Translations under genes and position numbers: made by a program
The notes under the pieces: model-generated
What the model was told of the DNA's origin: nothing
Database searches by the model: none
Seen by the model: only the letters and a program-made list of their open reading frames with translations
Origin: an uncultured Bacteroidia bacterium
Lineage (GTDB): Bacteria > Bacteroidota > Bacteroidia > Bacteroidales > UBA932
DNA: 42,009 bases
Assembly: GCA_902778105.1 (NCBI GenBank)
Contig: CACYWN010000026.1
Span: forward strand, 1-42,009
Direction: 5' to 3'
Part shown: one piece after another, positions 2,337 to 38,605 of the stretch
How positions within the stretch are numbered: position 1 is the first letter of the stretch
How the letters are laid out: each line of letters opens with the position of its first letter

Positions 2337-3688
2337 CTACAGTCTGCAGTCAATCGTAACCTTGTTCATATCCTTGTTACCCCAGGATGTGATCTTGATG
2401 GTGGTATTGGGGATAGCGGGGAGGTCGGCACGAGGAATGCTGTACTCGATGAAGGCACCCTCGTCATTGGCGACACCCTTGCATTTCATGTTTGCGAGCG
2501 TGAATTCCTCAGGAAGCCAGCCGCCGCCCTCTCCCGGCGTCTCGATGATGGCGGGCGCTTCGGCCGTCCCGCCATAAGGGAAGAAGAAGCCGATGAAATC
2601 GTACATACCGTTACCGTTCAGTTCCACGCCGTTGGTTTCGTCACCATCCAGTTCGAAACCGAGGTAGAGATAACCTTCGCCTCCCCAGAGAGCCGAGTAT
2701 CGGCCACCCAGCCCCCTGTAGGAATAGAAATAGAGGTTCTCCTCGTCGGAACCGACCTTGAACTGGATATAGTTGCCATTGCTGACGCCCTCGATATCTT
2801 CCCATTCGTCAAAGTTTCCGTCAACGGCGAAAGAAGGCTTCGGGGCCTCACCGCCCACGTTCACGACGATGGGCTGACTTCTCAGGTTGCTCGCGCTTTT
2901 GTTACCGGAGGTGTAAACCTTGATGGTGCTTCCGTACGTAATGCCCAAATCGGCCAAGGGGATACGGATTTCCGTCTCAACCACATCCTCGGAGATCTTA
3001 CCGGCGAGCGCGTTAGCGGCACAGGCATATTCCTCTGTTTCAGTAGCGCCAGCCGGAGCATCAGGAATCTCGGGAGCTTCGGAGGAACCCAGGAAGAAAT
3101 ATAGGTACATCCATTTGTCAAGCCCGATCAGATTGTCCCTGTCGGCAGGGCCGGTAGCCACATTGTTGTCCGTATCGACGAAGAAGTAGTAATAACCGCC
3201 GCCCCACATGGCAGGATCGTTGTTCCGCTTGTGATAGAAGTAGATGTATTCCTTGTCGAAGGCCACTTTGAAGGCCTTCAGCGGCTTGGATTCGTCTTCG
3301 GAGATGAGCACAAAACCACACCGGCAACGGAAGCGGCCAGCTTCGCTGTCGTGGTCGTACCGGGGACAAGGGCGTCCTTGTCAATGACCAACTTCCCGGT
3401 CACTTCGCTTTCGCCGGCTTTCATAACCAACTCGGAGGGGAAGGACATGCCGGACTTCATGGTGGAAGTGGGATCCAAAGCGAGGGCGATGGCAACGTCG
3501 GCGGGGACAGGAACATTGGAAACGACCTTGAGAGTAGCCTCTGTTTCAGAAGTGGTTTTTGCCGAGAAAGTGAATTGGACGGGAGTGCCCTTCGGATTTA
3601 GCATCTCATTTTCCGGAACTTTATCGCAGGAGGCGAAAGCAAACGCGGAAAGTGTAGCAATGAACAAATACTTAGCTAATGATTTCAT
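2337..3688 (-). pseudogene. Surface glycan-binding-type lipoprotein, frameshifted
   Basis: Two overlapping frames make one gene. Frame 1 (3688 down to ~3316) starts MKSLAKYLF, has a lipoprotein signal (AFASC) and an Ig-like N-terminal domain of the DUF1735/BACON kind. Frame 2 (from ~3311 down to 2337) continues with two DOMON/CBM9-like modules, recognisable by the repeated DGNFDEW and ENLYFYSYRG patterns and by WGG(E)GYxY strands. The switch falls at a run of four A (3312-3315). A fifth A would restore an uninterrupted reading ...GVVFVLISEDES... of about 450 residues. The intact protein would be an outer-surface binding lipoprotein of the PUL, similar in design to the products at 8495-9217 and 12400-13143. 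The lesion may be genuine, phase-variable, or a sequencing/assembly slip in a homopolymer. Confidence 0.75.
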
Positions 3689-3738: not shown

Positions 3739-4923
3739 TTATTCCAACATCAGGCTGCGGAACTCATCAATCTCTTCCTGCGAAATGCCGATGGTGAGGA
3801 GATAGGACTCAACGCCGTCCGCAAAACTTCCGTCCTCACCGGCCAGAGTCCAGATATACCTGGCAGCACTTGCATAATCCGCCTTACGGGTCATTTTGGT
3901 CTTCTCGCCGTCGGATGTAGCCCAGCCATGGGGAGCAAACTGGGTAAGCTCGTATTCCTTGGAGATATCCCCCTCGTTCACGCCCAGGAGGCCCAGAACG
4001 AGCATGGCAATCGTTCCAGTGCGGTCACGTCCCAGCGAGCAATGGAAATAGACAGGCTTGTCCTCGCGGACGCACTTCATGATAAACTCGATGCACTGCT
4101 TTGCCTTCTCCGAATCATTCCGAAGCAAATGCGTATAACCTTCCTCGATAACCGGAGCGCAGAATTCAATGCCTTCGATGGGGCTTTCGCTGAGCACATC
4201 GCTTTTTCCACGAAGGTCCAACTGGGCCTTGATGCCCTCCGCCAGGATATCTTTCTTTCCGCTGGTCACGAGTTTGCCCTTCTCCAGCCGGCCACCGCGG
4301 TAGATCTTGCGGTACTTGACGGTCTTACTCCCATCCTTTGTCATCCAGCCACCCAGGTCACGGACGTTCCGGACGCCCGAGGAAAAGAACAGTTGATGGA
4401 CATGTCCCGTCGTCTTGAAGGCACCGGAAGTAAGCACCTTGCCACCGGCCTTCACTTCGAAATGATAATTCGCATTGGGGCGCAGGTTGGAGATGGTCAG
4501 ATAGTAATCTTCAGCAACGAGGTTGGTGTATTCACGACTCCATCCGTCATCCTCCCACAGACGGGCGACCGGATCCCCAGCCAATTTGTCGGCGGTCCAG
4601 CGGATCGTAAAGGACTGCGGCTTGTCATACTTGCCGGGACAGGTCGGCTGATAAGCCTCATCCAGCAGGTGGGTTTCGGTATAATTGTTCTCCGGATATG
4701 TCACCTCCGTCATGAATTTTTCCACTGTTTCGTTGGTGACCAGGATGACATCCCCGTCCTTGACCTGGGGAGCCAGGTCGTCCTCCACCGGATCGACCGG
4801 AGTTACGGGCGTAGGATCTACGTTTTCCTTTTCTTCTTGATTCTCTTTGCTTCCCTCTTCCGGCTTTGTGCAACAGAATAGCATCGGAAGAATGACAAGC
4901 AACGCAAATAAACGGATTCTCAT
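3739..4923 (-). CDS. Secreted tyrosine/dual-specificity-type phosphatase lipoprotein
   Basis: A 394-residue protein. The start is taken at MRIRLFALL, directly before a lipoprotein signal ending LFCC. Upstream codons in the frame cover the promoter. Residues ~95-175 form a fibronectin-III-like domain (NLRPNANYHFEVKAGG). The C-terminal half is a Y_phosphatase3-type domain, with the entry motif RNVRDLGGW near 185 and the P-loop HCSLGRDRTG, giving Cys295-x5-Arg301 as catalytic pair. Family members hydrolyse phosphotyrosine, phosphoinositides or other small phosphomonoesters. The substrate here is unknown, but an exported phosphatase next to an alkaline phosphatase in a PUL points to removal of phosphate from a glycan or lipid. 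It appears to have its own promoter with DeoR-type operator repeats just upstream. Confidence 0.88.
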   Translation of the reverse strand: MRIRLFALLVILPMLFCCTKPEEGSKENQEEKENVDPTPVTPVDPVEDDLAPQVKDGDVILVTNETVEKFMTEVTYPENNYTETHLLDEAYQPTCPGKYDKPQSFTIRWTADKLAGDPVARLWEDDGWSREYTNLVAEDYYLTISNLRPNANYHFEVKAGGKVLTSGAFKTTGHVHQLFFSSGVRNVRDLGGWMTKDGSKTVKYRKIYRGGRLEKGKLVTSGKKDILAEGIKAQLDLRGKSDVLSESPIEGIEFCAPVIEEGYTHLLRNDSEKAKQCIEFIMKCVREDKPVYFHCSLGRDRTGTIAMLVLGLLGVNEGDISKEYELTQFAPHGWATSDGEKTKMTRKADYASAARYIWTLAGEDGSFADGVESYLLTIGISQEEIDEFRSLMLE

Positions 4924-4948
4924 AGTGCAACTAAAAGTGATTACTTGG

Positions 4949-4980
4949 CAAATATAATGAATAAAACGTTTCAATTGAAA
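4949..4980 (-). promoter_or_regulatory. Bacteroidetes-type promoter for the phosphatase gene
   Basis: On the minus strand TATATTTG (4949-4956) matches the TAnnTTTG -7 box exactly. With a 20-base spacer, TTTC (4977-4980) lies where TTTG is expected for the -33 box. The start codon is at 4923. An intrapromoter copy of AAAACGTTTCAATTG (4963-4977) overlaps the spacer and reaches the -33 region, which would allow repression. Confidence 0.55.
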
Positions 4981-5032
4981 GCTTTTGTTTCATTTTATCG
5001 GATAAAAAACGTTTCAATTGGTTTCGTTTCGA
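4963..5032. promoter_or_regulatory. Putative DeoR-family operator cluster
   Basis: A 15-base direct repeat AAAACGTTTCAATTG occurs at 4963-4977 and 5006-5020. The second copy continues into GTTTC, giving GTTTC-AATTG-GTTTC (5011-5025) with a 10-base period and a further GTTTC at 5026-5030. A perfect palindrome TTTTATC-G-GATAAAA (4993-5007) sits between them. The same GTTTC-N5-GTTTC arrangement occurs around the DeoR-family gene at 20668-20682 and, in complement, at 21533-21547 and 21568-21582. The second copy overlaps the last codons of the alkaline phosphatase gene. Confidence 0.5.
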
Positions 5033-6165
5033 GAAACAAAGGACGCAACGAGCCTCCCCCATTCATCATTCTCCCGGATACCGGTGAACGCCGCTGAGCC
5101 GGGGCCCCAGGCATAGAAGGGAACGGCGATGCCGTTATGGCTTTCGCTGGCGAAGGACACGCCGATCTCCCCTTTCTCCAGGTTCCCGTCCCGAAGGGTG
5201 AGACAGCCGGTGGCATGGTCGGCGGTCAGGACCACCAGGGTGTGGCCGTCGGCGGCCGCCCACGCGAGAACGTCACCCAGGGTGCGGTCGAAGTCCAGGA
5301 GTTCTTCCATGGCCTTCGCGATGTCGTTCCCGTGCAGCCAGTCGTCGATGCAGGAGCCTTCCAGCATCATCACGAAACCATTTTCACCGCTTTCGCGGGA
5401 CAGGATGTCCAGTCCGCGGGCCACGGTGTGGCGGTACAGGTCACCGCGTTCCATCGCCACGGGCAGGTTGTCCGGGGCGAGGATGCCGATGACCGGCAGT
5501 TCCGCCTGCATCAGGGCTTCTTCCGTCAGGGCCACGGTATAGCCTGCCGCCGCCATCTCCTTCGTAATGTCACGGCCGTCGGTCCGATTCACGGTAAACC
5601 AGTCCAGGCCGCCCCCGGAGAGATAATCCACGCCGCATTCCACATAATCGGCGATAAGGTCCTCCTGGTTATAGCGGTACTCGTTGTGGCAGCAGAAATC
5701 GCAGGGCGTCGCATCGGCGAAATGGCAGGTGACGGCGACGCCGGTTTTCTTGCCCAGCTCCCGGGCCTTTACCAGGATGGAAGGGATATCGGTGCTGTCC
5801 GGCGCCGTACCCACATGGCTGTAGGCCGTCTTCACGCCGGAGGAAAGGGCCGTTCCGCCCGCCCCGGAATCCGTGATGAGCTCATTGGTACACCAGGTGC
5901 GGGACAGGCCCACGTGGGTCATGTTGTCCAGGTTCAGCTTGCCGCGGTTCAGCACCCACGCGCAACTGACCTGCTCCAGGCCCATGCCGTCGCCGATCAT
6001 GAAGATGATGTTGCGCACCGCGTTGTCCTGCGGAGGTTCCTGGACGGAAACGACGTCGTAGGTGTACGGGGTGGCATAATACTGCAGGGCGGTCTCTTTC
6101 TCCTTCTGCTTGCAGGAAACGGCCGCCAGGGATACGGCAAGGGCGAAGAGGGCGATCTTATTCAT
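5014..6165 (-). CDS. Alkaline phosphatase (PhoA superfamily), lipoprotein
   Basis: A 383-residue enzyme starting MNKIALFAL with lipoprotein signal LAAVSC. I rejected the longer upstream start because it runs antisense-like through the preceding gene. Metal-binding and catalytic landmarks of the alkaline phosphatase fold are present: IGDGMG (Asp59), TDSGAGGTA with nucleophile Ser100, LEGSCIDDWLHGND (Glu269 and downstream ligands), TADHATG (Asp316/His317) and a late SHNG histidine. It hydrolyses phosphomonoesters in the periplasm or at the cell surface. The ATG is one base after the TAA of the upstream propeller gene, so the two are probably translationally coupled. Its placement in a SusC/D operon rather than near phosphate-starvation genes suggests a role in dephosphorylating the imported glycan. 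Confidence 0.92.
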   Translation of the reverse strand: MNKIALFALAVSLAAVSCKQKEKETALQYYATPYTYDVVSVQEPPQDNAVRNIIFMIGDGMGLEQVSCAWVLNRGKLNLDNMTHVGLSRTWCTNELITDSGAGGTALSSGVKTAYSHVGTAPDSTDIPSILVKARELGKKTGVAVTCHFADATPCDFCCHNEYRYNQEDLIADYVECGVDYLSGGGLDWFTVNRTDGRDITKEMAAAGYTVALTEEALMQAELPVIGILAPDNLPVAMERGDLYRHTVARGLDILSRESGENGFVMMLEGSCIDDWLHGNDIAKAMEELLDFDRTLGDVLAWAAADGHTLVVLTADHATGCLTLRDGNLEKGEIGVSFASESHNGIAVPFYAWGPGSAAFTGIRENDEWGRLVASFVSRNETN

Positions 6166-33757: not shown

Positions 33758-34102
33758 TCATTCCTCCCCGGACAAGCCCTCAAGGATTCCGTCAACCGCA
33801 CTTCCAACACGTTCCAAGGCTTTTTGGGTAATGGCCTTCGTGAAACGCGCGCTGAGCTGCGCAACCTCCTTGAGCTGCTCGTTGGTGAAGTCACAATCCT
33901 TCGCCTGTTCGGTAATCGCATCGAACTTGGCTTTGAGAGCATCGATATCCTTGACATCGAAACTGTCCTTTTCCACCGTCTTGCAGAGCGATTCCATCTG
34001 AGAAATGACCTTTTCCTCCTTCGACTGGCAGGAAGTCAGCAAAGAGAAAGCAAAAAGCAGGGCGACGACCGTCGCGACCTTGGTAATAACGTTGATTTTC
34101 AT
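33758..34102 (-). CDS. Small helical lipoprotein of unknown function
   Basis: A 114-residue protein with a clear signal and lipobox (FSLLTSC at ~19-25). The mature part is almost wholly helical and charged (EEKVISQMESLCKTVEKDSF, LKAKFDAITEQAKDCDF), with two further cysteines, and could form a helical bundle or coiled coil. No catalytic motif. Proteins of this size and style are frequent orphan lipoproteins in Bacteroidales. It has its own full-consensus promoter and terminator, so it is a single-gene unit unrelated to the neighbouring operons. Confidence 0.75.
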   Translation of the reverse strand: MKINVITKVATVVALLFAFSLLTSCQSKEEKVISQMESLCKTVEKDSFDVKDIDALKAKFDAITEQAKDCDFTNEQLKEVAQLSARFTKAITQKALERVGSAVDGILEGLSGEE

Positions 34103-34126
34103 AAGATAGAAGATTAATCAGTGTGA

Positions 34127-34157
34127 CAAAGATAAACAATTCAACGGCATTCGCAAA
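34127..34157 (-). promoter_or_regulatory. Consensus promoter of the small lipoprotein gene
   Basis: TTTG (34154-34157), 19-base spacer, TATCTTTG (34127-34134), all on the minus strand: an exact match to the Bacteroidetes consensus, 25 bases before the ATG at 34102. It abuts the repeat island that begins at about 34177. Confidence 0.78.
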
Positions 34158-34176
34158 GCCCGTTACCCCCCGGGTC

Positions 34177-34375
34177 AAAGATGGTGGGACCGGCGCCACT
34201 GGAGTGCGCAGGGACGCGATCTGCGGTGCAGGTCCCCCACCAAAAATCCCACCTGCGCCAAGACTGGGTGTCACCTGCGCCAAGGTCGGGAAATACCTGC
34301 ACTGTTTCGGCAGCACATACAATTTGCCACACCGCAAACGCCAGGCGGGAAACAAAAGTGAGAGACCACTGATGA
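34177..34375 (-). repeat. Composite repeat copy A (core plus short 22-bp array)
   Basis: The conserved core is 34177-34264. Its outer GGTGGGACC and GGTCCCCCACC segments are imperfect inverted repeats, and it ends with CCCACCTGCGCCAAGAC. Two 22-bp units starting CACCTGCGCCA follow (34250-34271, 34272-34293) and a degenerate third (34294-34315). The copy ends with GTGAGAGACCACTGATGA (34358-34375), a motif also found beside copy C at 36623-36640. No plausible coding content. Confidence 0.8.
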
Positions 34376-34637
34376 GTGGTCAATGATATTGCTGAAACTG
34401 GTGGGATGGGCCAGTTGCTTAGCAGGCAAGCTAGGCTACTGGAGCAGGTGGGGGCGGTTGCTGGTATAGGCATGCGAGGCTACTGGAGCAGGTAGGTAAA
34501 GCTATTGGCGCAGGTGGGGGCGGTTGCTGGAGCAGGTGGGAAAAAGATGGTGGGACCGGCGCCACTGGAGTGCGCAGGGACGTGATTTGCGGTGCAGGTC
34601 CCCCACCAAAAATCCCACCTGCGCCAAGACCATGTAT
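34376..34637 (-). repeat. Composite repeat copy B (degenerate array plus core)
   Basis: 34430-34540 holds irregular units around GGTTGCTGG and GCAGGTGGGG in the orientation opposite to the CACCTGC units. The core at 34543-34630 is nearly identical to copy A over all 88 bases (differences at a few positions such as GACGTGATTTGCGG). It runs directly into the 37-bp tandem array at 34638. Confidence 0.8.
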
Positions 34638-34821
34638 CACCTGCCCACGACCAGGACTTTCCTGCAATAGCAGCATCCGTACCATGACCAGGACTTTCCT
34701 GCACTGACAGCACCTGCGCCACGACCAGGACCCTCCTGCACCAGCAGCATCTGCCCCACGGCCAGAGTTTTCCTTCACAAGCAGCATCTGCCCCACGACC
34801 AGGACTTTCCTGCACTGACGG
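34638..34821 (-). repeat. Five-unit 36-37-bp tandem repeat
   Basis: Units at 34638-34673, 34674-34710, 34711-34747, 34748-34784 and 34785-34821 share CCACGACCAGGAC near the start and TTCCTGCA near the end. The unit differs in length and sequence from the 22-bp arrays but takes the same position next to a core. A GC-rich hairpin, CCGGCAC (34824-34830) with GTGCCGG (34854-34860), separates it from the transposase gene. Confidence 0.8.
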
Positions 34822-34883
34822 CGCCGGCACCGGCCCCGGGGCATGCCCTCGCCGTGCCGGATCACGTCCGCTCCCATATGGAC

Positions 34884-35843
34884 TTACGCCTCAACTTTTC
34901 CGATACCCGCTCCGATACCCGGACAAGCCTTTCCGAGCAGCCGGGCGACGATATCCTGTCCAAGGCCGAAACAGCGGGCGAGCTGTGGAATGGAGGTGCG
35001 GTAAGAACGATAGACATAAGGGAGCAGGCGGGCTTTTTTCTCCCGAGGCAACTCCAGGAGAGGGCAGTTGAACCAGCCTTTCGCGATGCTGTCGATGGTT
35101 TTGAGCATTTCGGTGTCATTTTGCCGTTGCCGGGGGTTGTCGACCAACTTCTGATGCATTTCGGCCATATTGACCGTGCCGATGGTTCTGAGGAAGAACG
35201 CCTGGTCGTTTCTGAAGGCGGATTCCAGGTAAGCATGGTCGCAGGCCGATGCGGGTTCCAACTCGCCATCGGCATTGACGACCCAGGGAAGACCGACCAG
35301 CGAATCATGGGTATGGAAGCAGGCCTCCTTTTCCCTTCGCGTCATGGCGTCCGCCCTGCGGAAGCCGCCGGAGGCCTTTCCCTGGCAGAACATGCCCCGG
35401 TAGCCGGACCACCGGTAGTCTTCCACCCGGGACAGGGCGTCCAGCGCATTTTTTGGGACATAGGCCAAGGTGTTCCGGAGATACCAGTCGGAATCCAGGT
35501 AAATGGCGACGGCCGATGTATGTTTCAGCACCCTTCGCTGCCGGTATTTGTTGCTGTAATACTGGGAATACATCCGCAGCCATTCCACCTTGAAGGCATC
35601 GGCATCCTCCTGGCCGGAGGCGAGGATGGTGGCATGGCCATGGTTGGACATGGCAATGTGGATGACGACGAGCACATTTTTCCGCCGGGCACAGATGAAA
35701 ATGTATTTAACCATCACATCATAGTCCTCGTCATCCCGGCAGAGTACCAGTTGCGTCATTCCTTCCAGACTGACATGGTACGGGTAGACCTTCCGGACAC
35801 TGCCGTCCGGCAGCTTCCGGGTACAGATCCTTTCGAAAGACAT
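34884..35843 (-). CDS. REP-associated-type (RAYT, IS200/IS605-like Y1) transposase homologue
   Basis: A 319-residue protein. The N-terminal domain has the Y1-transposase pattern: strand YPYHVSLEGMTQLVL, helix DDEDYDVMVKYIFICARR, the HUH-type metal motif MSNHGHATIL (His-Gly-His) near 65-70, then WLRMYSQYYSNKYRQR with candidate catalytic tyrosines and VKxxxxxxYLRNTLAYVPKNAL. The C-terminal ~60 residues hold a helix-turn-helix-like QLARCFGLGQDIVARLLGK. Such stand-alone transposases are single-copy, chromosomally domesticated and linked to REP-type palindromes. No insertion-sequence ends flank this gene; instead copies of a local repeat lie on both sides. It starts 2 bases after the stop of the 151-residue gene, so the pair is translationally coupled. 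Confidence 0.85.
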   Translation of the reverse strand: MSFERICTRKLPDGSVRKVYPYHVSLEGMTQLVLCRDDEDYDVMVKYIFICARRKNVLVVIHIAMSNHGHATILASGQEDADAFKVEWLRMYSQYYSNKYRQRRVLKHTSAVAIYLDSDWYLRNTLAYVPKNALDALSRVEDYRWSGYRGMFCQGKASGGFRRADAMTRREKEACFHTHDSLVGLPWVVNADGELEPASACDHAYLESAFRNDQAFFLRTIGTVNMAEMHQKLVDNPRQRQNDTEMLKTIDSIAKGWFNCPLLELPREKKARLLPYVYRSYRTSIPQLARCFGLGQDIVARLLGKACPGIGAGIGKVEA

Positions 35844-35845
35844 AT

Positions 35846-36301
35846 TCAGTTGGCCTTCTTCCTGCGTGACGGGCGAATCGGAAAGGCCATCGGTTCCCGC
35901 CCGTCTACCAGGGGTCCGCCGATCAGGGGACGGGACACGGACCTGTCATCGAATCCATACGACCTTTTGATCGCTGCTGCAAACGCTTCGAGTTGGGGAA
36001 TGGTATCGAACATCATCAGGCTCCAGAACTCTTCCGCCCGTTCGTAAGGCTGGGCGCACCCCAGGATTTCCGCCATCGCCACCAGCCGGACGGCCTGGCA
36101 GACCGCCTGGTCCCTGGTCCGCCACATATACTCCGTCATGTCGTGGACCAACTGTCTGAGTCTTTTGTCACACTCTTCGGCGTGGTCCAGTTTCGCACGA
36201 TAATCCTCCGAAACGAACGCTTCCTCCGTAACGAACACTTCTTCCGTGGAGAAATGGAACTTCCCATCTTCGTCCACCAGCACTTCCAAAAACTTTTTCA
36301 T
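35846..36301 (-). CDS. Unknown 151-residue partner of the transposase homologue
   Basis: I do not recognise a family. The protein is acidic at the N-terminus (VDEDGKFHFSTEEVFVTEE), mostly helical in the middle (LDHAEECDKRLRQLVHDMTEYMW, AVCQAVRLVAMAEILGC) and ends in a basic, proline-rich tail (PIRPSRRKKAN). No signal peptide or membrane segment. The spacing to the transposase gene (2 bases) is a strong sign that the proteins are made together. A DNA-binding accessory or regulator would fit the basic tail, but that is a guess. No consensus promoter is visible upstream. An inverted pair AACGGGA/TCCCGTT (36317-36323 and 36363-36369) lies in its leader. Confidence 0.75.
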   Translation of the reverse strand: MKKFLEVLVDEDGKFHFSTEEVFVTEEAFVSEDYRAKLDHAEECDKRLRQLVHDMTEYMWRTRDQAVCQAVRLVAMAEILGCAQPYERAEEFWSLMMFDTIPQLEAFAAAIKRSYGFDDRSVSRPLIGGPLVDGREPMAFPIRPSRRKKAN

Positions 36302-36622
36302 GGCAGTTTATTCAATAACGGGACGCCACCGTTGGCAATCCAAATGCAAGAATAAGGAATTATCCCGTTTTGCAGCACGGATGGGAAGACCAGATTCTTG
36401 CAACTCAACCGGTTGGTTTCCAGGGACTTACGATGCAACGCGATTGTAATCACATTTTCAATCAGAACGAATCTCTTGATTGTCAGCTAATTACAGCCAT
36501 CTGAACAAGCAAGAAAGCGGAGGTGCGGCCACCAGTGGTTTCAGGGAAAGAACGCTATGATTAGCGCAGTTGAGAGCGGTTACGATAGTGACTGCACGAT
36601 CCACGCCGGGCGAGAAGCAAGA
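36302..36622. other. Non-coding stretch upstream of the transposase operon
   Basis: About 320 bases without a convincing gene. Frames across it are short or run into the repeat array. It should contain the operon promoter, but I see no TAnnTTTG/TTTG pair. The AACGGGA/TCCCGTT inverted pair (36317-36369) is the only structure noted. Confidence 0.5.
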
Positions 36623-36981
36623 GTGAGAGACCGCTGATGATGGCCGGTGCGGTCGCCGGTGCAGGTGGGGGCGGTTACCGGTGCAGGCGGGGGCGGTTGC
36701 TGGTGCAGGTGTGGGCGGTTGCTGGTGCAGGTGTGGGCGGTTGCTGGTGCAGGTGTGGGCGGTTGCTGGTGCAGGTGTGGGCGGTTGCTCCGGCGCCACT
36801 GGAGTGCGCAGGATCGTGATTTGCGGCGCTGGTCCCCCACCAAAAATCCCACCTGCGCCAAGACTGGGTACCACCTGCACCAAGACTGGGCAACACCTGC
36901 ACCAATGTCGGGCATCACCTGCACCAATGTCGGGCATCACCTGCACCGAAATCGGGCAATACCTGAACCATTTCGGCAGTA
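36623..36981 (-). repeat. Composite repeat copy C: two opposed 22-bp arrays around the core
   Basis: Starts with GTGAGAGACCGCTGATGA (36623-36640). Six 22-bp units run from 36649 to 36780 (four identical from 36693, containing GGTTGCTGGTGCAGGTGTGG) plus a 9-base stub. The core lies at 36790-36864. Then six 22-bp units run from 36850 to 36981 and begin CACCTGCACCA. CACCTGCACCA is the complement of TGGTGCAGGTG in the left units, so the two arrays are inverted relative to each other around the core and share the 22-base period, while the other half of each unit differs. Confidence 0.85.
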
Positions 36982-37080
36982 GCTGCGATACGCAACACCG
37001 TACCGAGCAGCTCCTGAGCCAAGAATGGGACACTCTTGCGCCAAGGCCGGAATACCTTTTCTCCAGGTCACGACACCCCC

Positions 37081-37155
37081 AAGCCCGGTCCTGCACAGAG
37101 CTGCACCCCAAAGCCCGGTCCTGCACAGAGCTGCACCCCAAGCCCGGTCCCGCGC
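37081..37155. repeat. 30-bp tandem repeat beyond the polymerase stop
   Basis: Two identical 30-base units (37081-37110, 37111-37140; each begins AAGCCCGGTCCTGCACAGAG) and a shorter diverged third to about 37155. They finish a few bases before the polymerase stop codon at 37160. The array is part of the same GC-rich, gene-free island as copies A-C but of different sequence. Confidence 0.8.
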
Positions 37156-37159
37156 AGAA

Positions 37160-38605
37160 CTACCCGGCTTGGACCACATGCCGCTCGACAACCTCGCCTT
37201 TGCGGTGGAGTTCGAAGCAGTCGGAGTTGTCGGGGAGCTTGACGTGGTGAATGCGGAGGGTCGGGTCGGAGCGCACGGCGCTCTTCGCGGCGGCGAGGGC
37301 CTTTTCGCCGTCAGGGTAGCGGAAGAGGAGCGGACCTTCTTGCACGCCCTCCTCCTGAGGCGGGGCGACCGGGAGTGTCAACGGAGACAATGGGGACGAC
37401 GACAACGACGAAGAAGACTGCGCCGGTTTTTTCCGTTCGTAGGCGAGCAGGCGGGCGTCTTCGGCCCGGGCGCGCTCAGCGTCGTACTGGCGGTCCCACT
37501 CGCGGTAGTACTCCATTTTCGGATCCTCGAAGAGGGACATCTGTTCGGTGGTTTCGTGGGTGAGTTTCGAAACGCCGAGGCCCACCTGGCGGAGGGGTGA
37601 CACTCCGTCCCAGACCTCGGAGAGCATCCGGCGGGCCTCGTTCAGGATGACGGCCGTGATGTCCGTCGGCTGACCCGTCTGGCACTGCCGCTGGGCGACG
37701 GAGAAGTCACTGTACTTGATGAACATGGACACGGTCGAGGCGCGGAAGCCGGCCCGGCGGATGCGGTGGGCGACGATGCAGGCCACGTTGAAGAGGGCCC
37801 GGTCGATGTCCTTCGGATCGGCCAGGTCCTTCGGGAAGGTCCGCTCCGCACTGTAGCTCTTGGCTTCCTGGACCTCCGTCTCCACCGGGGAATCATCCCG
37901 TCCGTTTGCATTCTGATGCAGTTGCACGGCGAACTTCTGGCCTACCAGGCGGGTGAGCTGCCCCACGCTGAGCCGCGCCAGGTCCCCGATGGTGCGGATG
38001 CCGTAGGCGAGGAGCCGCTCTTCGGTCTTTTTCCCCACCCAAAGGAGGTCCCGCACGCCCAGGGGCCACATCTTCTCCCGGACCTCGCTCTCCCAGAGGG
38101 TATGGACCTTGTCCGGCTTTTCGAAATCCGACGCCATCTTCGCCAGGAGCTTGTTCGAGCCTACGCCGACATTGACCGTGAATCCCAGGCGGGACTTGAT
38201 TTCGTCCTTGAGGCGGGTAGCAACTTCCACCGGGTCCTGCACCCCGCACCGGTGCGTCATGTCGAGGAAGCATTCGTCGATGGAAAACTGCTGCAGCACC
38301 GGGGAATAGCTCCGGCAGATGGCGATGAACCCCTCGGAACAGCGCTTGTACCATTCCCAGTCTCCGTGGACGATTACCAGTTGCGGGCATATCCGCAGCG
38401 CCATCGACACGGGGATGGCCGTCCGGATGCCCAGCTTCTTCGCCGGCATCGACGCGGCCGAGACGATGCTCCGCCGGTCGTTCGGGTCCCCGGACACGAC
38501 CGACGGGACCAGCCGGATATCCGGTCCTCCCGCCATGACGGTCTTCACCGCCGACCAACTGACGAAAGCGGAGTTCACATCGATATGGAAAATGATGCGG
38601 GGCAT
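37160..38605 (-). CDS. dinB: Y-family DNA polymerase (DinB/Pol IV type)
   Basis: A 481-residue translesion polymerase. The palm carries HIDVNSAFVSW (Asp9) and FSIDECFLDMT (Asp110/Glu111) as catalytic acids. The VGVGSNKLLAKMASDFEKPD and LWVGKKTEERLLAYGIRTIGDLA segments are the usual palm/thumb region with helix-hairpin-helix. The little-finger domain follows (YSAERTFPKDL). It is ~100 residues longer than typical Pol IV. The extra C-terminus has a Ser/Pro-rich linker (SSSSLSSSPLSPL) and a short compact end (RSDPTLRIHHVKLPDNSDCF). It probably copies damaged DNA. The -7-like box TATCTTTG at 38614-38621 is only nine bases before the ATG, so the mRNA may be almost leaderless. Confidence 0.93.
   Translation of the reverse strand: MPRIIFHIDVNSAFVSWSAVKTVMAGGPDIRLVPSVVSGDPNDRRSIVSAASMPAKKLGIRTAIPVSMALRICPQLVIVHGDWEWYKRCSEGFIAICRSYSPVLQQFSIDECFLDMTHRCGVQDPVEVATRLKDEIKSRLGFTVNVGVGSNKLLAKMASDFEKPDKVHTLWESEVREKMWPLGVRDLLWVGKKTEERLLAYGIRTIGDLARLSVGQLTRLVGQKFAVQLHQNANGRDDSPVETEVQEAKSYSAERTFPKDLADPKDIDRALFNVACIVAHRIRRAGFRASTVSMFIKYSDFSVAQRQCQTGQPTDITAVILNEARRMLSEVWDGVSPLRQVGLGVSKLTHETTEQMSLFEDPKMEYYREWDRQYDAERARAEDARLLAYERKKPAQSSSSLSSSPLSPLTLPVAPPQEEGVQEGPLLFRYPDGEKALAAAKSAVRSDPTLRIHHVKLPDNSDCFELHRKGEVVERHVVQAG

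Follow-up and report, generated by a model that had tools for sequence, protein, structure and literature searches.

A probable REPtron-like module with a coupled partner gene and a candidate residue-to-base code in rumen Bacteroidales

The operon and its repeat unit

The present study concerns a two-gene operon and the repeats that surround it in a 42,009-nt stretch of DNA from an uncultured Bacteroidia bacterium (contig CACYWN010000026.1; hereafter, the window). The window is contig C26 of a draft genome, G000, which is 84% complete and comprises 2.66 Mb on 48 contigs. The downstream gene encodes a Y1/HUH protein that resembles REP-associated tyrosine transposases (RAYTs; REP, repetitive extragenic palindrome), and the upstream gene encodes a smaller partner (Table 1). 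We consider, with a probability of roughly 0.78, that this module is REPtron-like, comes from a divergent RAYT lineage in rumen Bacteroidales, and operates by the mechanism proposed in the Discussion. Across dozens of related species, variation in the repeat sequence parallels variation at a small number of enzyme residues; therefore, the Y1 enzyme very probably recognizes its own flanking repeats, as judged from sequence comparisons.

The original prediction placed three copies of a repeat core (A, B, and C) around the two genes. The coordinates, strand, and 2-base gap of the genes were reproduced, as were the copies. With copy B (34543-34630) as the query, copy A (34177-34264) was 98% identical over 88 nt and copy C (36790-36864) was 95% identical over 75 nt, all on the + strand. 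However, the substrate is not a core with arrays in place of a palindrome, as had been proposed. It is a REPIN-like palindrome pair, and the arrays are extra half-sites. The full unit is an approximately 97-nt pair of 35-nt palindromes (NNNNNAGGT, 16-17 nt, ACCTNNNNN), the starts of which are 62 bp apart. Each palindrome consists of a 9-nt arm that ends in AGGT, followed by a 16-17-nt loop and a complementary arm beginning with ACCT; palindromes with this tag are referred to below as tagged. Copy B is the only complete unit in the window (34529-34625: H1, spacer, and H2), and the core drawn earlier for it begins within the loop of the first palindrome, H1. In copies A and C, H2 is retained, but only the right arm of H1 is left. 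The half-sites in the 22-bp arrays have the AGGT orientation on one side of the core and the ACCT orientation on the other. As single-stranded DNA (ssDNA), the 97-nt unit of copy B had folding z-scores of -3.9 (+ strand) and -3.1 (- strand) against shuffles, and each of five single strands of 97-nt units outperformed its shuffles in folding (z from -3.1 to -6.5).

Table 1. Features of the module in the window
Feature	Position	Strand	Basis or remark
RAYT-like Y1/HUH gene, 319 aa (P0001)	34884..35843	-	open reading frame; H68, H70, Y128
Partner gene, 151 aa (P0002), upstream in operon	35846..36301	-	2-bp gap to Y1 gene
Copy A, H1 without its left arm (right arm shown)	34189..34197	+	window sequence compared with copy B
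Copy A, palindrome H2	34225..34259	+	palindrome search
ACCT-oriented half-sites, at copy A and to its right	34250..34300	+	window sequence
22-bp array left of B, degenerate half-sites, AGGT orientation	34433..34540	-	tandem repeats
Copy B, palindrome H1 (GGAGCAGGT-N17-ACCGGCGCC)	34529..34563	+	palindrome search and copy comparison
Copy B, palindrome H2 (GGTGCAGGT-N17-ACCTGCGCC)	34591..34625	+	start 62 bp past H1 start
37-bp array between B and Y1 gene, 4.7 copies, degenerate half-sites by eye	34644..34816		tandem repeats
22-bp array left of C, 6.4 copies, AGGT orientation	36649..36789	-	tandem repeats
Copy C, H1 right arm; 22-bp array in place of left half	36789..36797	+	window sequence compared with copy B
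Copy C, palindrome H2	36825..36859	+	palindrome search
22-bp array right of C, 5.5 copies, ACCT orientation	36850..36970	+	tandem repeats

The Y1/HUH protein and its relatives

P0001 has a specificity segment at approximately residues 169-179, followed by C-terminal helices. Its AlphaFold2 (AF2) model had a mean pLDDT (predicted local distance difference test) of 91.5. The best fold match in the PDB by Foldseek was 4er8, the E. coli RAYT with a REP hairpin (E 4.3e-4, target-normalized TM score 0.60), followed mainly by IS200/IS605 transposases; there was no Rep protein among the 50 matches listed. At E<=1, P0001 matched nothing in Pfam or NCBIfam, Y1_Tnp (PF01797) included, and its matches in PHROGs were at the level of chance. 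A profile compared with PDB sequences gave two weak matches, neither of which was a Y1 protein. In the genus set (A1, 27 Y1-protein members), Y1_Tnp was matched at E<=1 by 22 members (best, 1e-4), the window protein not being among them. Weak Pfam matches of the helix-turn-helix (HTH) type were obtained for some relatives, such as HTH_PafC in 10/27.

Relatives were found through a sequence pattern around the catalytic tyrosine, and the locus counts below refer to the best 80 of 147 confirmed relatives. The named relatives are nearly all Bacteroidales or Bacteroidia metagenome-assembled genomes (MAGs), and their titles are mostly ruminant. Two loci with close homologs (L117 and L182) lie on contigs labelled as Fibrobacter MAGs, for which mis-binning and horizontal transfer are both possible. 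The rows of the 80-locus set and of the genus set, with near-identical genus rows dropped, gave 92 aligned proteins, including the window protein. H68 and H70 were each conserved in 91 of these and Y128 in all 92; within the genus set, Y128 was present in 27/27 and the two histidines in at least 90%. Since the search pattern was built on the tyrosine motif, the conservation of Y128 among these relatives is partly due to selection. One locus of the genus set, L091, has a broken HUH motif and unrelated flanking arrays.

Palindromes at related loci

A tagged palindrome was found within 2.5 kb of the gene at 76 of the 80 loci (67 upstream, 62 downstream, and 53 on both sides), although some of the contigs end early, within these flanks. 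Markov resamples of the same flanks gave palindromes at 2/80 loci, with 2 palindromes in total versus 223 in the real flanks, and the 80 gene bodies contained one palindrome. A 29% identical relative (L093) was excluded from the palindrome counts and from the code counts below. The loop measured 17 nt in 181 of 235 palindromes and 16 nt in 47, and the starts of neighboring palindromes were 61-63 or 73-76 bp apart in 90/94 cases. Across 77 loci, half-sites of the same orientation were mostly 22 bp apart (206 cases; the next spacing, 24 bp, in 21). The distance from an AGGT half-site to the next facing ACCT was mostly 26, 48, 70, or 92 bp (26+22n), or one less. An exact palindrome search made without the tag found 331 palindromes, of which 171 were runs of N; AGGT lay inside the arm in 126, and the next real tetramer in 8. 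Three of the loci without a tagged palindrome (L125, L127, and L193) have repeated 10-mers that resemble an altered tag; the repeats at L145 do contain ACCT, but none of them passed the palindrome filter.

Covariation of enzyme residues and repeat bases

The tagged motif was available for 87 of the 92 proteins (all but those of L091, L125, L127, L145, and L193), some of the 80-locus rows still being close to each other. These 87 enzyme-repeat pairs comprised 22 distinct forms of the five variable arm bases. The arm forms tracked the protein tree, with 30 changes versus a mean of 61.9 and a minimum of 57 in 50 shuffles, but varied frequently enough for the associated residues to be recognized. 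Among contrasting pairs matched for identity, residue 173 alone stood out for base 4 (excess 0.78; next 0.23), and residues 179 and 169 came first for base 5 (0.78; next 0.40) and base 3 (0.69; next 0.49), respectively. Residue 173 and base 4 were combined as E-G in 41/41 cases, R-C in 34/35, L or A-A in 3/3, and G-C in 4/5. The combinations of residue 179 with base 5 were H-C (28/28), R-C (6/7), G-A (45/45), A-A (4/4), and C or D-G (3/3), and those of residue 169 with base 3 were K-G (43/44) and R-C or A (33/34). When training was restricted to proteins of <55% identity, residues 169, 173, and 179 predicted bases 3, 4, and 5 in 68, 77, and 79 of the 87 pairs; prediction from the nearest relative was correct in 47, 46, and 62. 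Residue 176 and C-terminal columns also emerged but were rejected as readers, as none of them ranked first for any of arm positions 3 to 5.

The pairing of R with G and of E with C represents the usual major-groove preferences, and the main pairs found here, as written on the ACCT strand, are R-G and E-C. In the structural model, residues 169-176 are predicted to form a helix beyond the Y1 core, with residue 179 in the turn after it. Part of the published work on E. coli TnpA-REP describes a short helix in the C-terminal extension as important for binding (PMC8266576); by analogy, this helix may correspond to the 169-176 helix.

Copies in the host genome and in the genus

A search of G000 with the core, which had been set as a check on the original prediction, revealed additional copies on six contigs (C3, C6, C13, C21, C22, and C43). 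At 0-2 mismatches, the 35-nt palindrome occurred at 12 sites on 6 contigs, including 4 in the window, and C33 was a seventh additional contig. C3, C6, and C22 have both palindromes with starts exactly 62 bp apart and are contigs without a gene of this subfamily. In the whole genome, with all levels up to 3 mismatches taken together, a backward-read control pattern gave 10 matches versus 16 for the real pattern; in 191,549 bases of G000 chosen around repeats and paralogs, it gave 0 versus 11. In the copies on C43 (L039:1-93) and C13 (L041:1-90), H2 is broken off where the contig ends, in both cases by an identical open reading frame start that probably belongs to an insertion sequence, and H2 of the C21 copy (end of L029) is interrupted by other sequence. 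These three interruptions suggest an insertion sequence with a preference for these hairpins.

Two palindrome types were sought in 61 genus genomes and were found in 7 and 9. Gene presence was assessed in 49 genomes searched at E<=1e-30. At least one palindrome type was present in 10 of the 19 genomes with the gene versus 1 of the 30 without it (Fisher p 1e-4, phylogeny ignored). Thus, the two outcomes that would have spoken against the earlier proposal, namely, a lack of further copies and repeats equally common in genomes without the gene, were not observed.

G000 holds 16 Y1 homologs at E<=0.1, including P0001, a point on which the original prediction was incomplete. Only two of the 16 are members of this subfamily. 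At 11 of the 16 loci, at least 16 nt were common to the upstream and downstream flanks of the gene (maximum, 14 in 400 random placements); the other 5 showed no shared flank sequence above this null. Therefore, eleven RAYT-like genes with their own repeats coexist in one small genome.

Several further observations were made on these paralogs and their surroundings. Y1 paralogs at L025, L026, and L028 (C23, C6, and C21) adjoin genes assigned by Pfam to single-stranded DNA-binding protein (SSB) plus an exo/endonuclease family, MutS, and RecA, and the window module adjoins DinB (37160-38605, Pfam). Other paralogs have metabolic or transport neighbors, and the adjacencies to repair genes are given as examples. 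A separate 30-bp tandem repeat (2.8 copies, 37077-37158) lies just downstream of dinB, outside the module. On C18, a divergent Y1 gene lies between arrays of 50-bp units (L030:3114-3514 and 4618-5327; about 8 and 10-14 copies), the two sides of which differ in sequence. A 29%-identical Y1 gene in another genome (G039:C14) lies between arrays of 73-bp units (L061:485-1323 and 2449-3247; about 11 copies each). The HUH motif of the paralog at L033 (C14:49334-50216) appears to be broken in translation, and this gene is possibly a decaying copy.

The partner gene

The partner family was upstream of the Y1 gene at 52 of the 80 loci, with a gap of 1-3 bases in 37 of the 52. In the genus set, P0002 or a homolog was immediately upstream in 11/27 loci, and two other loci have an HRDC-domain protein in this position (L070 with a 6-base gap and L091 with a 112-base gap). 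The family was present in 19 of the 61 genus genomes. Twenty partner loci were inspected: 15 have a clear adjoining Y1-family gene, and the contig of L109 ends directly after the partner. At L105, L107, L108, and L110, no Y1 gene directly follows (L107 has only a weak match at its end); therefore, the partner family is also found alone. For P0002 itself, neither Pfam nor NCBIfam yielded a match (E<=1), and PHROGs gave only chance-level matches. Because its fold prediction was poor (AF2 pLDDT 67, no Foldseek match at E<=0.001), any function assigned to the partner is provisional.

Discussion

We read the module as a two-gene RAYT-like REPtron of a kind absent from the surveys consulted. It combines three new features: a repeat with an AGGT lattice, a partner gene, and a putative residue-to-base code. 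The fold match to 4er8, the cognate palindromes, and the dispersed copies support the earlier proposal of a RAYT-like module with its own repeat. However, two parts of the original prediction need correction: the 151-residue gene, then called unknown, belongs to a conserved partner family, and REPtrons and TIRtrons are described systems of the kind that the prediction was unable to name. Judged from the sequences, the anatomy appears to be that of a REPtron, which we set apart from the published subclasses by description.

RAYT/TnpA-REP proteins with REPs or REPINs (REPtrons; class 2 of Quentin 2018 and groups 2-3 of Bertels, whose group numbers appear in sections of PMC6006769 and PMC8266576) share several features with this module: a Y1 core fold with HUH and one tyrosine, inverted pairs of cognate palindromes that flank the gene, one palindrome family per gene, and dispersed repeat copies with a patchy distribution. 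In contrast, the proteins described here are about 310 aa long with a long C-terminal helical part, whereas a section of PMC6006769 gives median lengths of 151-194 aa for subclasses 2.2, 2.4, and 2.5. The tyrosine motif is Y[IV]P[RK]N here and YIxxNP in RAYTs, and the 22-bp half-site arrays and the coupled partner gene also distinguish the module. TIRYTs with their TIRtrons (Di Nocera 2013; TIR, terminal inverted repeat) and Quentin subclass 2.1 are similar in having a longer Y1 protein with an HTH-like C-terminal part and flanking repeats that are unrelated to GTAG, some of which form genome families. The sequence GGGGWSAS, common to part of the published TIRs according to a portion of PMC3733652, was absent from window positions 33901-37200 and occurred within 1 kb on both sides at 6/80 loci, a comparison that applies to this TIR type. 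For subclass 2.1, a passage of PMC6006769 states that the authors found no REP-like sequences. Subclass 2.6 (Bacteroidetes), compared by description, belongs to the same phylum and also has atypical flanking structures with copies elsewhere; the corresponding passage gives 'atypical secondary structures' and a median of 179 aa (PMC6006769). The Quentin dataset required Pfam Y1_Tnp at E<0.01, as stated in a part of the same paper (PMC6006769), and, unlike subclass 2.6, the window protein falls outside this threshold. IS200/IS605 TnpA proteins share the predicted Y1 chemistry and subterminal hairpins. However, the present module has no near-identical copies in the genome, its bracket orientation is not fixed, and the size of the coupled gene does not resemble that of TnpB. 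Among the open-licence literature matches listed, no paper dealt with this Y1 family, its partner, or the code.

We speculate that the segment at residues 169-179 reads the paired arm, which may be a duplex half-site or a hairpin stem on ssDNA such as that at a replication fork. The HUH/Tyr center would then nick and rejoin one strand close by, and this reaction may copy or move the palindrome pair to new sites and occasionally relocate the whole operon. Slippage or repeated processing may extend the half-sites in 22-bp steps. The partner, usually of the P0002 family, may bind DNA, or may assist or control the nuclease. A more specific claim is that this short stretch of the HUH protein recognizes individual bases of the paired arm by a simple code (169-base 3, 173-base 4, and 179-base 5), so that repeat and enzyme have been re-matched many times, with the 26+22n-bp lattice pointing to both duplex and hairpin recognition. 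We regard the chances of this claim as about even.

A number of results weigh against these conclusions. In 88/92 proteins, the two HUH histidines are separated by a small residue (G, S, C, or A), and a section of PMC6006769 gives a bulky middle residue for the published HUH motif. In contrast to canonical REPs, AGGT lies within the stem, and GT[AG]G was found at none of 428 hairpin feet (214 palindromes, 80 loci). The partner is missing from 28/80 Y1 loci. The palindrome type that belongs to the 49% identical paralog on C8 has hardly spread: of seven palindromes with 0-2 mismatches, six adjoin the gene, and the backward control for this type gave 9 matches versus 8 real ones at <=3 mismatches. 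One genome (G011) has palindromes of the types sought (1+3) but no detected gene. Another (G023) has 8 GGGCAAGGT palindromes, although the arms at its detected gene are of the GTWCA type. Regarding the code, D173 goes with C at arm base 4 in 2/2 cases, contrary to the E-C logic, and R169 is ambiguous at base 3, with C in 25 and A in 8. Column 65 equals residue 169 as a predictor of base 3 (69 versus 68), column 136 is close behind residue 179 for base 5 (77 versus 79), and arm base 2 has no clear reader residue. Strictly independent pairs were too few: 3.8 same and 0 opposite of 7 for position 4 and R173 (p 0.125), and 3.8 same and 0 opposite of 4 for position 3 and R169.

Three other explanations were considered. 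The half-sites, phased at 22 bp, may form an array of iterons or operators that the protein binds on duplex DNA to regulate its own operon or to shape the chromosome locally, with the hairpins being incidental. The spacings of 22, 26+22n, and 61-63/73-76 bp are near whole helical turns, the arrays occupy both flanks of the operon, and some relatives have the weak HTH matches. However, the conserved HUH/Tyr catalytic residues and the almost fixed loop of 16-17 nt do not follow from this view, and mobilization is needed to explain the dispersed copies; we consider it unlikely. The proximity of an HUH protein to 22-bp iteron-like arrays suggests that the module may be what remains of a rolling-circle replicon from a plasmid or phage. 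This is highly improbable, given that the top folds are RAYT and IS200 transposases with no Rep protein among the matches listed, that the chromosomal context beside dinB is kept in a relative (L114, below), and that 11/16 Y1 loci in the genome have repeats common to both flanks.

An autonomous IS200/IS605-like or TIR-bounded transposon, in which the two flanking elements form its left and right ends and the entire module moves, agrees with the Y1 fold and with several comparisons of related loci. The 93% ortholog (L114) has the same neighbors as the window module, dinB and s114. The 82-83% orthologs (L115-L118 and L126) are at other sites, and their homology to the window is confined to the operon and repeats within the fetched flanks. 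In G096, which carries L118 elsewhere, tRNA-Pro, dinB, and up343 follow in order with neither the module nor s114 between them. The brackets of one locus can also be nearly identical to each other. However, G096 does not offer a clean empty site: s114 is absent too, and about 0.4 kb is unrelated. The gene flanking L118, used as an empty-site probe, had no match in its own genome. At the 41 loci flanked by two complete elements, the brackets were direct in 25, inverted in 13, and unclear in 3, which speaks against fixed transposon ends, and a model with a fixed left and right end was dropped for this reason. Furthermore, the two subfamily members in the genome are only 49% identical, not identical copies, and palindrome pairs are dispersed without the gene. 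A transposon of this type is quite improbable, and we favor a REPtron-like module.

How RAYTs recognize and keep pace with their own REPs is an open question. Part of a 2021 study on three RAYT-REP pairs reports that enzyme and repeat co-evolved and that recognition strategies differ (PMC8266576). Since 87 natural pairs are available and three residues cover most of the variation at three bases, the proposed code is directly testable by point mutation. The REPtron-like module described here adds a partner gene and a non-GTAG repeat type, in gut and rumen bacteria, whose proteins of this kind show only weak matches to the Pfam Y1 model. If the code is correct, it would provide an HUH nickase with a stem specificity that is predictable, and perhaps changeable, from sequence.

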